Assembly: GCA_009691905.1 (NCBI GenBank)
Contig: SIAF01000013.1
Coordinates: forward strand, 1 to 32,150
Origin: Planctomycetaceae bacterium
Lineage (GTDB): Bacteria > Planctomycetota > Planctomycetia > Planctomycetales > Planctomycetaceae
Direction of reading: 5' to 3'
DNA length: 32,150 nt
Shown: piece after piece, positions 6,967 through 19,961 of the stretch
Layout: each line of letters starts with the position of its first letter
How positions within the stretch are numbered: the stretch's first letter is position 1
Made by a program: the position numbers and the translations under genes
The notes under the pieces: model-generated
The model's database searches: none
Told to the model about the DNA's origin: nothing
Seen by the model: the letters and a program-made list of their open reading frames with translations, nothing else

Positions 6967-7791
6967 ATGGCCCTTGATCTCGATCGCCTGCAAAACGAAT
7001 CGTTTGTCGCCGGCGTCGAATGGCATAAGACTCTGGAATCGACCAACGACCTGGCGATGCAGCGGGCTGCACAGGAATCGCTCGAAACCCCGTTTCTGAT
7101 TCTGGCTGACGAGCAGACGACCGGTCGCGGGCGCGGGAACAACCGCTGGTGGTCAGGGACCGGAGCGCTGACGTTTTCGCTGGTCATCGACCCGCAAACC
7201 CCCGCCGGCAACGGCAACTCGCCCCAGCGAGCCGGTGGGTTCATCCCACCGGTTTACTGGCCCCGCGTCGCGCTAGTCGCCGGCGTCTCACTGTGCGAAG
7301 CTCTCGAGATCCTGGCGCCACAGTTGGATTACGGCCTCAAGTGGCCCAACGACGTGCTGATTGCGGGGAAGAAAGTGGCCGGCATTCTCGTCGAGATCCC
7401 GCCGGCTCGGCCGCCGATCCCACGCCGGCTCGTCCTGGGGATGGGGGTCAACGTCAACAACTCGCTCGCCGAGTCGCCGCCGGAGATTCAATCTGTCGGC
7501 ACCGCCCTGTGCGATGCGACCGGTCTCGAATTTGATCGGACGCAGGTTCTGTTGGCGTGGCTGGACCGATTTTCGGCCAATCTGTCGGCACTGGCTGCCG
7601 ACAGCCCCGCGTTGCCGGCCGGCTGGCAATCGCGGTGCGTGCTCACGGGCCAGACGATCGAGCTGCAAGCCGGCGACCGCGCGGTGCGCGGCGTTTGTCG
7701 CGGAATCGACGTCGACGGGGCCTTGCTGGTTGACACGCCGACAGGGCCGGAGAGACTGTATGGAGGGGTGCTCGTGCGGGTGTTGGCTTGA
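6967..7791 (+). CDS. birA: Biotin--[acetyl-CoA-carboxylase] ligase
   Basis: ESTNDLAMQRA, ADEQTTGRGRGNNRWWSGTGALTFSLV, LKWPNDVLIAGKKVAGILVE and GMGVNVNN; canonical BPL catalytic motifs without an obvious N-terminal HTH. Confidence 0.92.
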   Translation: MALDLDRLQNESFVAGVEWHKTLESTNDLAMQRAAQESLETPFLILADEQTTGRGRGNNRWWSGTGALTFSLVIDPQTPAGNGNSPQRAGGFIPPVYWPRVALVAGVSLCEALEILAPQLDYGLKWPNDVLIAGKKVAGILVEIPPARPPIPRRLVLGMGVNVNNSLAESPPEIQSVGTALCDATGLEFDRTQVLLAWLDRFSANLSALAADSPALPAGWQSRCVLTGQTIELQAGDRAVRGVCRGIDVDGALLVDTPTGPERLYGGVLVRVLA

Positions 7792-11057: not shown

Positions 11058-12494
11058 CTAACGCCGCGGTTGCTGAACGCCGGTGCCGCCTCCGTTGGGA
11101 TTTCCCGAATTGATGAAGCTGAAGGTGAACACGTCGGTAATCGCCGAGAACGTCGGCACCATCGACAATCGAACGTAGCGGCGATCTCCCGAGACGACGG
11201 CCATCGCGCTCAGCGCCACTCCTTCCGAAAGAATTGAAATCACAGGCTGATAGCCGACTCCGCCCGCGGCGCCCCCTGCGACGGCCCCGTCACTTCGTCC
11301 CGGGCCGTACGAGCGCCGCCCGACCATCCCGCCGCGATTGGAGCGAGCGCTTGAGGGCGCTTTGCGATCGACATCGAGCAGCGCCACCGCGGCCGGTTCG
11401 ATGAGCCGCCCTTGTTGCAGCGTCACCCGCACGACTTTATCGTGCTCGGCCAGTTGCACGACGAATCGCTCTTCCAGTTCGTAGGGCGTCCCCTGGTAGC
11501 GCACGATGCGCACGACGGCTCGTTTACTGACGACCTCCCCCTGAATGTACCGGACGGTGACACGATATTCGCCGGGCATGCCGCGCGGGCAAACGTATTT
11601 GTCAAAGGCGTCGCGCGAGTCGGCCCCCATCCCGTCGTGGACGAACACGCCTCCGCCGGAGGTCGTCGGATTATCGCTCGAACACGTCGTTCCCGAAGGC
11701 TCTTCAACCAGCAGATCGAGATCGGCTTTCCCGCTCCACGACAATTCGATCAGCAGGTCGCGTTCGAGGGCCTCGGCAAGAGCGCGGGCCAGTCGATCGG
11801 CCTCGGCGGCGCGCCCCTCGCGACGAAGTTGGCCTTCGAGCGCGCGGACGGTTTCCTCGGCCTCGCGGTGCAGGGCCGGGTGGTTCTTGTTCCAGGCGCG
11901 CGTCAGAATTCCAGAGGCCGCCCAGGCGACGGCAACCGGATCGTGGCGATCGCGCGCTAACTTGAGCGCCAGCACGTACGGCTCAAGCCGGGTGGGGTCG
12001 ACCGTTGACGCCTGCCGGTACAAATCGAGAGCCCGATCGTTGGCGCCATATCGCGTCAGAAACGCCGCTGAGTACAGAAGGTTGCCGACATTGACCGCGC
12101 TGAAATCGACGCCCGAAAGCAGCACACGCTCGATTTCGTTTTGCGGTCGGCCGGCCTGCTTCATCGCCAGGGCCAGAACGGTGTACATCCACGGTTGCGA
12201 ATGTCCGTGAATCAGTGCCGCTTCAATGCATGCGATGAGATGCTCGGGCTTTCCCGCCTTGTGCAGCCGCATGACGACATCGCCGATGGCGGCCGGATCG
12301 GGGTGGTGCGTTTTGAAGTATTGATCCCAAACCTCGGCGGGGGGGCCTTCGCCGGGAATCGTCGGGATGACCTCCTTTTTCTGCTTTTGACCATCGATCC
12401 AGTCCCTCAGCCGATTACGTTTGGCGGCTTTGGGGTCGACCGGGGGCTCAACGAAAGCAGCGGAACCAGCCTTTTCAGGCTGATTCCGCTGCAC
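11058..12494 (-). CDS. TPR plus YfaP/DUF2135-like domain protein; probably the C-terminal half of the adjacent VWA protein in the -1 frame
   Basis: 478-aa ORF with helical repeat region (ALIHGHSQPWMYTVLALAMKQAGRPQNEIE) and LSWSGKADLDLLVEEPSGTTCSSDNPTTSGGGVFVHDGMG. The annotated ATG has no visible Shine-Dalgarno, and the frame stays open upstream to the A9 run. Confidence 0.75.
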   Translation of the reverse strand: MQRNQPEKAGSAAFVEPPVDPKAAKRNRLRDWIDGQKQKKEVIPTIPGEGPPAEVWDQYFKTHHPDPAAIGDVVMRLHKAGKPEHLIACIEAALIHGHSQPWMYTVLALAMKQAGRPQNEIERVLLSGVDFSAVNVGNLLYSAAFLTRYGANDRALDLYRQASTVDPTRLEPYVLALKLARDRHDPVAVAWAASGILTRAWNKNHPALHREAEETVRALEGQLRREGRAAEADRLARALAEALERDLLIELSWSGKADLDLLVEEPSGTTCSSDNPTTSGGGVFVHDGMGADSRDAFDKYVCPRGMPGEYRVTVRYIQGEVVSKRAVVRIVRYQGTPYELEERFVVQLAEHDKVVRVTLQQGRLIEPAAVALLDVDRKAPSSARSNRGGMVGRRSYGPGRSDGAVAGGAAGGVGYQPVISILSEGVALSAMAVVSGDRRYVRLSMVPTFSAITDVFTFSFINSGNPNGGGTGVQQPRR

Positions 12495-12544
12495 TTTGGG
12501 AGACTTGGGAGAAGACGGCGACTTGGGTTTTACGGGATCAGGTG

Positions 12545-15082
12545 TTACTGAAGCGTCGCTCGTTTTTTTTTCCGCTCGCGCACGCTTTTGTTGTTGAATT
12601 GGCCCTTGCTGATTGGGGCCGGAGCTTTGGCATCGGATTGGGTCTCGTCGGCGACGTTGAACATACCGCCCCCGCCCATGCCACCACCACCCTGACCACC
12701 GCCGCCGCCACCGAACTGACCGCCGCCTTGACCGCCGCCGATTCCCCCGGCGCCACCCCCGCCCTGGCCGAGTCCGCCGGCCTGGCCGGACGTGATGGGA
12801 ATCACCAGGTCAGCCACAGGATAGACGCGGGTCGAAGTCCGATCGCTGGCATAAGCGGCGGTGACGATTTTCATAACCTCGTCTTCAATGACGTATGTCA
12901 ATGAGAACGGTTCCAGCAGCAGTTTCAAGGCACTGCGGAACGAGATGCCGGCCAGCTTAAGGGTGACGGGCGCGTCGATCAGGGTGCCGGCATCCAGCAG
13001 ACCGGGACGGTCGATAATGATGTTGATGTTGTGATAATCCTTGAGATACTTGATGACCTCTTCCAGCGGCGTCTCGTCGAAGTCGAATTCGGTCGTCTTG
13101 TCGAGCGTGCGGCGAATTTTTTCTTCGGCGGCATTGTACTTCTTCAGGTCGACAGCCGACCACTTCTTGCGACGTTCGGTCAAGGCCCGCCAGGTTTCAG
13201 GCGCCGGCCAGAGAATTGGGGGTTCATCGGGAAATGGCACATGCGATCTTTCGACCTGATACAAAGTCTCCAGGAACTTGTCCGACCGCAGGTAGCGCAT
13301 CCGCTGAATTTTGTCGAGCTGGCCGGCCGCCTCGGTGTCGAAAATCGCAGCCGCCGTCACACCAAGGTACGGAGCGGTTTCCCACGCGGCGCGGGCCACC
13401 GCCTCGGAACGTTCGAATGCGGCTTCGTTGCCGGTGAAGCCCTCATCCAGCAGCGACCGCACTTTGTCGATCAACTGTTCGAGTTCTTCCTCTTTTTGAA
13501 CCAGTTCGTCGACGGCCAGGATTCGCGCCTGCATGGCCGAGAACCGCACCTGCTGCTGTACCTCTTCGATGTCGCGGCGCTGTTTCTGGGTTGTCATCGC
13601 GTCGAGCGCGGCTTGCAGGCGCCGCCGTAGCGACTCGCGGCTGACCGGGTCGATATTGATCGACGAATTGACGGTGTTCAGAGTCCGCTTGAGATTGGCC
13701 AGGGCGCTGTCGGGATCCTGGGTCGCCAGTTTGCGTGTCGCCTCGATGTCCTGTTTGACCTGCTGCGTCAGCCTCTCTGTTGCAACGACCTTATCTGCCT
13801 CGTACGCTTCGAGCAGGTCGTCGTCTTTGACGGTCCCGCTGTCCTGCGCGGGAGCGGGCGGCGCGAACTGGACCGTTTGGGCCTTCACCTTATGAGAAGC
13901 CGTGAGAATCGCCTCGGCCTCAACGTTGGCCGGGTCGATCTCGCGAACCGCCCAGGCGATTTGTTCGGCTTGCTTCAAATCGCGGGCGGCAACAGCCAGT
14001 TGCCCGCGACCGACGAGTTGCTGGACGTAGTCTTCATATTCCTGACGGGCGATGTTCAGCATGTCGCGCCCGGCCACCGAGACGCACAAACCCTGGCTGC
14101 GGTCAGCAACGCTCCACAGACCTGCCAGAAAAGTATTTCCCGCCTGCGGTGGGGACGGTATGACCGTCCACGTCAAGGTTCGATTCGAGTCGGTCGAAAC
14201 CGCTTTCACATCGACCGTCTCGCCGATGCTGCCAAGCCCCAGTACGACCGAATCGCGATCGGCGCGCAACGGGGGAACGGCACCGGGCAGAATTCGTGTG
14301 ACCTCGGGCGTAATCTCAAGTGAGTCGGCATAAAACACCGGAGCGTCAGCGGCCTGAGCCAGTTCGCGACCCAGAGACGCGGCTGAGGTCTTCCGGTCGT
14401 CGATGACTTCGTCGACGAGAATGTAGCCGCCGGTGTGCGTTGCCAGCAGACCCAGCAGTTGCAAATCTGTCCGTGGGCCGACGGCATAGCTGTGCACCGC
14501 CACATGCCGCTCGCGCAGTTTGTCGACCAGTTGCTGAAGGGCGGCCACATCAATCAGCTTACCAGTGCTCATTCCGTCGCCGATGTAGATGATCGATCGC
14601 GCGCGGTCTCCTGAAAACATCGACAGCGAGTCGTTGAGCGCTGCTTCGAGACCGGTCGCCCCCAACGGGACGCGGCGTTTCAATTGCGCGAGAGCCGCCT
14701 GAGTTTGCGTCGCTGCCGGGGCATGAAAATCGTCAGAGAGAGATTTGACCTCAACGTCGACCGCGACCAGCTTCACGCGATCGCCGGCCGGCAGGGCCGC
14801 CAGGCAGGCTTCGAGAACTTCCAGCGCCTGTTCGCGATGGGCACCCGTCTGGCTCGCGGACGTATCCACCAGCAGCACGTGATCGTGCGCCGCCGGTGTC
14901 CCCAGAGCCGGGGCACGCAGGGACAGCGCGAAATAACCGTCGCCACCCGCAACGTCATACCGAATCAAACTGCCCGTCGGTCCCGCGACCGGCCGGCCTT
15001 CGTCGGCGACGCTCCCTAAGGCCAGAGCACCTAAACCGAAAACCAATCCGGTGCGAACCGCTAACCTGACGCGCGGATGCAT
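12545..15082 (-). CDS. Secreted VWA-domain protein with C-terminal STN (secretin/TonB short N-terminal)-like domain and Gly-rich tail
   Basis: Start reassigned to ATG 15082 (MHPRVRLAVRTGLVFGLGALALGSVADEG, signal-like). VWA: HVLLVDTSASQTGAHREQALEVLEACL and SIIYIGDGMSTG. STN-like: FDFDETPLEEVIKYLKDYHNINIIIDRP...PVTLKLAGISFRSALKLLLEPFSLTYVIEDEVMKIV. Confidence 0.82.
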   Translation of the reverse strand: MHPRVRLAVRTGLVFGLGALALGSVADEGRPVAGPTGSLIRYDVAGGDGYFALSLRAPALGTPAAHDHVLLVDTSASQTGAHREQALEVLEACLAALPAGDRVKLVAVDVEVKSLSDDFHAPAATQTQAALAQLKRRVPLGATGLEAALNDSLSMFSGDRARSIIYIGDGMSTGKLIDVAALQQLVDKLRERHVAVHSYAVGPRTDLQLLGLLATHTGGYILVDEVIDDRKTSAASLGRELAQAADAPVFYADSLEITPEVTRILPGAVPPLRADRDSVVLGLGSIGETVDVKAVSTDSNRTLTWTVIPSPPQAGNTFLAGLWSVADRSQGLCVSVAGRDMLNIARQEYEDYVQQLVGRGQLAVAARDLKQAEQIAWAVREIDPANVEAEAILTASHKVKAQTVQFAPPAPAQDSGTVKDDDLLEAYEADKVVATERLTQQVKQDIEATRKLATQDPDSALANLKRTLNTVNSSINIDPVSRESLRRRLQAALDAMTTQKQRRDIEEVQQQVRFSAMQARILAVDELVQKEEELEQLIDKVRSLLDEGFTGNEAAFERSEAVARAAWETAPYLGVTAAAIFDTEAAGQLDKIQRMRYLRSDKFLETLYQVERSHVPFPDEPPILWPAPETWRALTERRKKWSAVDLKKYNAAEEKIRRTLDKTTEFDFDETPLEEVIKYLKDYHNINIIIDRPGLLDAGTLIDAPVTLKLAGISFRSALKLLLEPFSLTYVIEDEVMKIVTAAYASDRTSTRVYPVADLVIPITSGQAGGLGQGGGGAGGIGGGQGGGQFGGGGGGQGGGGMGGGGMFNVADETQSDAKAPAPISKGQFNNKSVRERKKKRATLQ

Positions 15083-19394: not shown

Positions 19395-19961
19395 ATGGAG
19401 AGCCCCATTCGAATCCGAAAGATGGCCGCCGTTATCGCCCTGATCGGGGCTGTTTGCGCCACGCCCGCGGCAACTCGGCTGGCTTCGTTGGCCGCTGAAC
19501 CCGTCTGCGGAAATGGCGGCCCCGGCTGCCATTGTCGCGGCTGCGGCTGCGAGGTCTGGGATGGCGACCAGTGTGTCGTTGTCCCGGACACGAAGACCAC
19601 GAAAAAATGGGTCTACTCGACCAAGCTGGTTCCGTTTTGCGTCAAGGGCTGCCCCAATCTGTTCAAATGCCGACATGACGCCTGCGAGACGTGTCCCGAG
19701 TGCGAGTCGTGCGTCAGGTACAAACGAGTGCTGATCAAGCGAGAAGTGGTGACCAAGACCGAGGGCTTCAAATGCATCCCGCTGTGCGAAGCGTGCCGCA
19801 ACGCCAAGAAGAAGGCGAAGGAACACGAGAAGTCGAAGCCGTCGCCAATGGCCGAAACAAAATCGGGATCGTTTGAACCGGCCCCGGTGCCCGGCACTTC
19901 GAAGCCGGCCCCCTCGGCGGCACGCGATGCCCGGATCCCATCGATTTCCCCGGTACGCTGA
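19395..19961 (+). CDS. Secreted cysteine-rich hypothetical protein
   Basis: Signal-peptide-like N-terminus, then about 16 Cys in the mature part (CHCRGCGC, CVKGCPNLFKCRHDACETCPECESC, CIPLCEAC) and a charged/Pro-rich tail. Confidence 0.7.
   Translation: MESPIRIRKMAAVIALIGAVCATPAATRLASLAAEPVCGNGGPGCHCRGCGCEVWDGDQCVVVPDTKTTKKWVYSTKLVPFCVKGCPNLFKCRHDACETCPECESCVRYKRVLIKREVVTKTEGFKCIPLCEACRNAKKKAKEHEKSKPSPMAETKSGSFEPAPVPGTSKPAPSAARDARIPSISPVR

Follow-up and report, generated by a model that had tools for sequence, protein, structure and literature searches.

A conserved nine-A run followed by a terminator-like hairpin in a split planctomycete gene: a candidate for transcriptional slippage with a possible link to transcript length

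Results

Two reading frames meet at a run of nine A

We analyzed a 32,150-nucleotide (nt) stretch of a Planctomycetaceae bacterium genome (assembly GCA_009691905.1, contig SIAF01000013.1, positions 1 to 32,150; hereafter the window), in which two open reading frames (ORFs) of the minus strand, ORF1 and ORF2, appear to form one gene interrupted at a run of nine A (A9). ORF1 encodes a hydrophobic, signal-like N-terminus, a VWA domain, an STN-like segment and a Gly-rich tail ending in KKKRATLQ. The run (12563-12571) is read as AAA AAA AAA in ORF1, within the minus-strand sequence ...GTG CGC GAG CGG AAA AAA AAA CGA GCG ACG CTT CAG TAA. The ORF2 frame, which would be entered through one extra A (the -1 frame), extends uninterrupted from 12809 across the run to its stop at 11058. 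ORF1 probably starts at the ATG at 15082, which is preceded by GGAG 8 nt upstream; from this start the short product would have 845 residues and the fused product about 1,341. A first-pass annotation of the window had proposed that the run joins the VWA/STN ORF to the downstream ORF in the -1 frame, in a product of about 1,340 residues, and the coordinates that it gave proved correct. It had also described the nominal ORF2 start at 12494 as an ATG lacking a Shine-Dalgarno sequence and having an open frame upstream. The latter two features are present, the sequence upstream of the codon being AAGTCGCCGTCTTCTCCCAAGTCTCCCAAA, and the codon itself is GTG. The features of the locus are listed in Table 1.

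Both strands of the window genome (6.36 Mb, 490 contigs) contain 31 overlapping A9 matches, corresponding to about two dozen separate sites, and no other run of nine or more A was found on the sense strands of the gene family's loci (587 kb scanned). The occurrence of A9 at the frame junction is far above chance expectation. Among the other A9 sites of this genome with frames examined, a single one looked similar, the overlap of dnaG and rpoD (L164, G000:C9:3416-3424), and it was set aside as a case of two ordinary genes.

Table 1. Features of the split gene and their positions in the window.
Feature	Position	Strand	Basis
ORF1 (short product of about 845 aa, probable start ATG 15082)	12545..15082	-	ORF list; Pfam VWA_3; GGAG before ATG
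VWA domain	14423..14878	-	Pfam VWA_3, E 3e-19, residues 117-268 of the 893-aa frame
STN-like segment ending ...YPVADLVIPI	12782..13093	-	Weak FecR_C match below cut-off; by-eye likeness to the secretin L304 of the genome
Putative A9 slippage site	12563..12571	-	Sequence; conserved in 143/145 Planctomycetaceae and 30/30 (tentative) Isosphaeraceae loci
ORF1 stop TAA, 15 nt past the run	12545..12547	-	Sequence
ORF2 reading frame, open from 5' of the A run to its stop	11058..12809	-	ORF list and sequence; linker comparison across relatives
Earliest possible ORF2 start, GTG, at the hairpin foot, without Shine-Dalgarno, judged unused	12492..12494	-	Sequence; start position not conserved
Terminator-like hairpin within the ORF2 frame (stem of 16 bp, loop of 4)	12457..12492	-	Strongest hairpin and top terminator-like site; equivalent in most relatives
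U tract after the stem, TTTCGTTG	12449..12456	-	Sequence; T enrichment across relatives
ORF2 TPR superhelix	11766..12422	-	AlphaFold2 helices 47-265 of the 500-aa segment; Foldseek TPR; Pfam TPR in relatives
ORF2 beta-sandwich, weakly DUF2135 (YfaP)-like	11418..11762	-	AlphaFold2 strands 267-381; DUF2135 in 4/33 relatives
ORF2 C-terminal strand segment, common to a secretin of the same genome	11148..11243	-	Second match in nearly every genome; L304 Pfam Secretin E 8e-22

The split and the run are conserved in two families

A first survey of 59 genomes revealed ORF2 as a separate frame of about 410-620 residues throughout Planctomycetaceae, and as part of a chain of 1,290-1,620 residues in most other families. 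Homologues of ORF2 are present in 143 of 152 Planctomycetaceae genomes, covering 52 genera. The junction was examined in 145 Planctomycetaceae loci and carries an A run in 143 of them (134 with A9, six with eight A followed by G, hereafter A8G, and three with A10), while the remaining two comprise one locus at a contig edge and one without a run. The frame relation is that of the window in 121 loci and the opposite one in five, among them genus g4, where three species retain A9 but would require the loss of one A or the gain of two. The ORF1 frame of this genus was set by homology in two species and by reading the frame in the third. Three further loci with the opposite relation (L027, L037 and L111) come from single assemblies and could be errors, hence g4 alone was used as evidence; L055 (a gap of N in ORF1), L145 (without a run) and L017 (contig edge) were counted neither for nor against. 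Many assemblies (L070, L071, L081, L082, L095, L126 and L128-L130) break within the Gly-rich region or close to it, a few hundred bases 5' of ORF2, and the gene pair is often cut as a result.

The second family with a split gene (f2) is one that we tentatively take to be Isosphaeraceae (Isosphaera pallida, Paludisphaera), the name serving as a lead rather than a test. ORF2 is found in 43 of its 45 genomes (21 genera), all 30 junctions examined have exactly A9 with the ORF1 stop close behind, and each of the 28 with a determined frame relation needs one extra A. The first-pass annotation had foreseen a comparison of split and homopolymer among relatives: both are kept across these two families, and the close relatives, rather than having an intact frame free of the homopolymer, are split and carry the run. 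Its mention of planctomycete VWA proteins with both halves in one chain holds for more distant families. In these other families of Planctomycetia, no run of seven or more A was found near the linker in 26 fused loci and three cut by contig ends.

Only one Planctomycetaceae genome (G152) has a fused gene, a single frame of 1,351 residues with A10 in frame. This locus (L087), in a Schlesneria-like genome, has no strong hairpin and is either naturally in frame or misassembled. An unrooted protein tree places the two A9 families in separate clades and requires three or more changes of state, counting that in G152. As the root is not set, two gains, or one gain with losses, would both be compatible with the tree; the run and its hairpin were possibly gained twice, or were ancestral and lost by fusion.

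Selection acts on the nucleotides around the junction

The proteins are mostly 40-50% identical and the flanking DNA cannot be aligned by eye. The lysine codons at the site are AAA in 400 cases and AAG in 6, whereas elsewhere in the same ORFs the counts are 1,956 AAA and 2,532 AAG. The first A of the run falls at codon position 1, 2 or 3, with different encoded residues, yet the length stays at nine. The linker past the run is poorly conserved (median 59 codons), with the ORF2 frame open in 148 of 148 loci and the other frames in 3 and 5. The earliest possible ORF2 start codon lies 0-135 codons past the run, sometimes within the conserved domain. These observations indicate that translation of the region follows the ORF2 frame from the run onward. 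The comparison shows that selection keeps together A9, both frames and, about 50 nt past the ORF1 stop, a terminator-like hairpin, and programmed recoding at A9 is, in our view, very probable.

A terminator-like hairpin lies within ORF2

The hairpin and U tract of the window (12449-12492) read GCAGCGGAATCAGCC-TGAAAA-GGCTGGTTCCGCTGC TTTCGTTG and form the strongest hairpin of the 32 kb; other standout hairpins of the window are two adjacent ones of 15 bp at 19505-19589 and one at 7224-7260. Scanning the RNA around the run across loci gave one sharp peak, in 50-nt windows starting 40-80 nt past the run (mean z of -1.05 to -2.49, compared to 0 to -0.8 elsewhere). The hairpins are GC-rich, with stems mostly of 12-18 bp (median 14 bp), and their sequence is wholly different between genera while the structure is kept. 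The hairpin zone has a median score of 33 versus 16.5 in control zones, and in 120 of 149 loci the top hairpin lies there. The hairpin starts at a median of 63 nt past the run and 49 nt past the ORF1 stop, the middle half of the latter distances spanning 41-64 nt. Compensatory changes support the stem in genus g71, with 14 compensatory cells, a number reached by none of 500 shuffles, and more weakly in Gimesia.

After the last G-C pair, eight positions have 47-66% T, falling to 8-19% thereafter, and at least five T are found in the 8 nt past the stem in 47% of strong cases compared to 1% of control hairpins. Nothing clearly above controls was seen at the hairpin position in fused relatives, and a search of Rfam gave no match. 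The hairpin was overlooked in the first-pass annotation and changes the likely regulation of the gene.

Slippage may set both protein and transcript length

The explanation that we favor as a whole, and hold to be moderately likely, is that slippage at A9 would yield two proteins and would also decide whether the second half of the gene is transcribed. In most rounds RNA polymerase would copy A9 faithfully, the ribosome would halt just past the run, and the hairpin would be free to fold, so that most unslipped transcripts would end there and give the short VWA/STN-like protein. Addition of an A by the polymerase, or omission of one where a lineage has the opposite frame relation, would let the ribosome continue in the ORF2 frame and cover the hairpin; transcription would proceed, and the slipped mRNA would be translated into a long VWA-STN-TPR-beta-sandwich protein. 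In Escherichia coli, a terminator is fully active once its distance from an upstream stop codon exceeds about 27-30 nt, and it is repressed if translated through (PMC4824070). The stop-to-hairpin spacing of 41-64 nt fits this threshold, which led us to propose slippage-gated attenuation, where one stochastic stutter would set the frame of the ribosome and hence the length of both transcript and protein. Termination at the hairpin and its gating by translation are plausible, and we consider the chances of the complete attenuator to be evenly balanced.

An alternative that keeps the same slippage, and that we regard as possible but rather doubtful, gives translation no gating role: the hairpin would merely protect or terminate the short mRNA, and the long mRNA would arise by ordinary read-through. 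The U tract and the location of the hairpin 3' of the ORF1 stop, as for terminators, are compatible with this scheme. It accounts less well for a hairpin inside the ORF2 frame, whose usual spacing from the stop exceeds the distance at which ribosomes interfere in E. coli, and for its not being seen in fused genes.

The first-pass annotation had left the choice between slippage and a -1 ribosomal frameshift, and of the two, slippage by RNA polymerase fits better and is the mechanism that we consider likely. Programmed -1 frameshifting on A AAA AAA/G, with the hairpin acting as a terminator or an element of the mRNA 3' end, appears unlikely, even though one of these slippery heptamers (A AAA AAA or A AAA AAG) is present at every A9 and A8G site. 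The A8 variants (L020, L085, L125, L126, L138 and L141) are all followed by G, giving AAA AAA AAG, and could hint at a shift to ribosomal frameshifting; AAA AAA AAG is very slippery in E. coli. Slippage is favored because nine A are kept in all phases, because stimulators of ribosomal frameshifting are missing, and because genus g4 has the opposite shift, in place of a fixed -1 relation. Seven A would suffice for a ribosome, only 8 of 143 sites have a Shine-Dalgarno-like stimulator before the run, and no structure was found at the usual frameshift spacing of 5-9 nt past the run, the structure starting at a median of 63 nt. An upstream hairpin, as in stem-loop-stimulated slippage, was not found either (z about -0.3). 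Nine A is also the length from which many bacterial genomes start avoiding such runs, owing to slippage (PMC1088944).

Two ordinary adjacent genes, with ORF2 starting on its own downstream of a terminator, would be in line with the GTG at 12494 and with a terminator-like element between the halves. An independent ORF2 start was nonetheless rejected, as the GTG of the window lacks a Shine-Dalgarno sequence and the start position is not conserved, moving over 0-135 codons and sometimes into a conserved domain; the linker open up to the run in all loci and the existence of fused homologues also make this arrangement very improbable. A sequencing or assembly indel, which the first-pass annotation saw as the main alternative, or a pseudogene, might come to mind for an error-prone homopolymer in a 490-contig assembly, and is practically negligible since an identical A9 and frame relation recur across dozens of genera, single-contig genomes included, and both halves are conserved, which refutes sequencing error as a general account.

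Several points weigh against slippage-gated expression as outlined above. The U tract is imperfect (47-66% T) in many loci and could partly reflect coding, while about one third of the Planctomycetaceae loci and two thirds of the Isosphaeraceae loci do not reach the strict cut-off set for hairpins, in which bulges are ignored. The six A8G sites, with A AAA AAG, would suit -1 ribosomal frameshifting too. Furthermore, the case is built on comparison of DNA sequences, and tight coupling of transcription and translation in Planctomycetes is an assumption.

The long protein is probably an envelope component

ORF2 of the window has no Pfam match of its own. Its relatives have TPR matches, and a weak match to DUF2135 (YfaP), with an E of 0.03 at best, was seen in 4 of 33 of them and not in the protein of the window. 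The AlphaFold2 model of ORF2, with a predicted local distance difference test (pLDDT) value of 79, comprises a TPR superhelix, a beta-sandwich and a C-terminal strand piece, and the best fold matches in Foldseek are TPR proteins. A secretin of about 1,700 residues encoded elsewhere in the genome (L304:1210-6300, G000:C204) has the STN-like motif and the 60-residue C-terminal piece of the VWA/STN-TPR gene, and a second match of this kind occurs in almost all genomes surveyed. One Planctomycetaceae subgroup (L114-L144: g30, g55, g56 and g72) has a shorter ORF2 without the C-terminal piece. Since this piece recurs in a secretin, the protein probably belongs to the cell envelope, in connection with machinery of the secretin type.

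Comparison with known systems

Two products made through slippage at A9-A11 are known for dnaX, mxiE, spa13 and tssM1 (PMC1088944, PMC5009743, PMC4256274). As in Thermus thermophilus dnaX, a run of nine A in the planctomycete gene would give two products of one cellular gene, the short one ending just past the run. However, faithful copying of A9 leads to the long product in T. thermophilus and would lead to the short one here, and a conserved intragenic terminator is not mentioned for dnaX (PMC1088944). In Shigella mxiE and spa13 and Citrobacter rodentium tssM1, the longer protein likewise needs slippage (PMC1088944, PMC5009743, PMC4256274) and, for tssM1, both forms are required. These cases have been described in few species, whereas the planctomycete site spans two families and is paired with a terminator-like hairpin in ORF2.

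Terminators gated by translation, such as the pyrBI attenuator and those of the tR2 position study (PMC4824070), share with the proposed element a function that depends on the passage of ribosomes. There, the speed of coupling or the position of the stop is decisive, whereas here it would be the frame set by slippage, and the terminator-like hairpin sits in the middle of a gene.

In stem-loop-stimulated slippage, the hairpin is reportedly just upstream of the run, unlike the planctomycete hairpin, which is located 50-110 nt downstream. The combination of a terminator-like hairpin with a homopolymer is nevertheless common to both (Penno 2015, cited in PMC5009743).

A literature search that mostly did not extend to subscription journals found neither a description of this gene in Planctomycetes nor any case of slippage linked to a terminator inside a gene. 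To our knowledge, cellular genes with productive transcriptional slippage number a handful, most of them described in few species. The gene reported here is split in 73 genera, 52 from one family and 21 from the other, and the run is present at almost all junctions read, so that it ranks among the best conserved slippage cases that we know of. As automatic annotation would probably call the gene frameshifted or two genes, the long protein may be absent from databases. If the model is true, the paired hairpin would represent a new way of tying transcript length to reading frame. Genetic tools exist for Planctopirus limnophila, and the system is testable in cultured, genetically tractable Planctomycetes.

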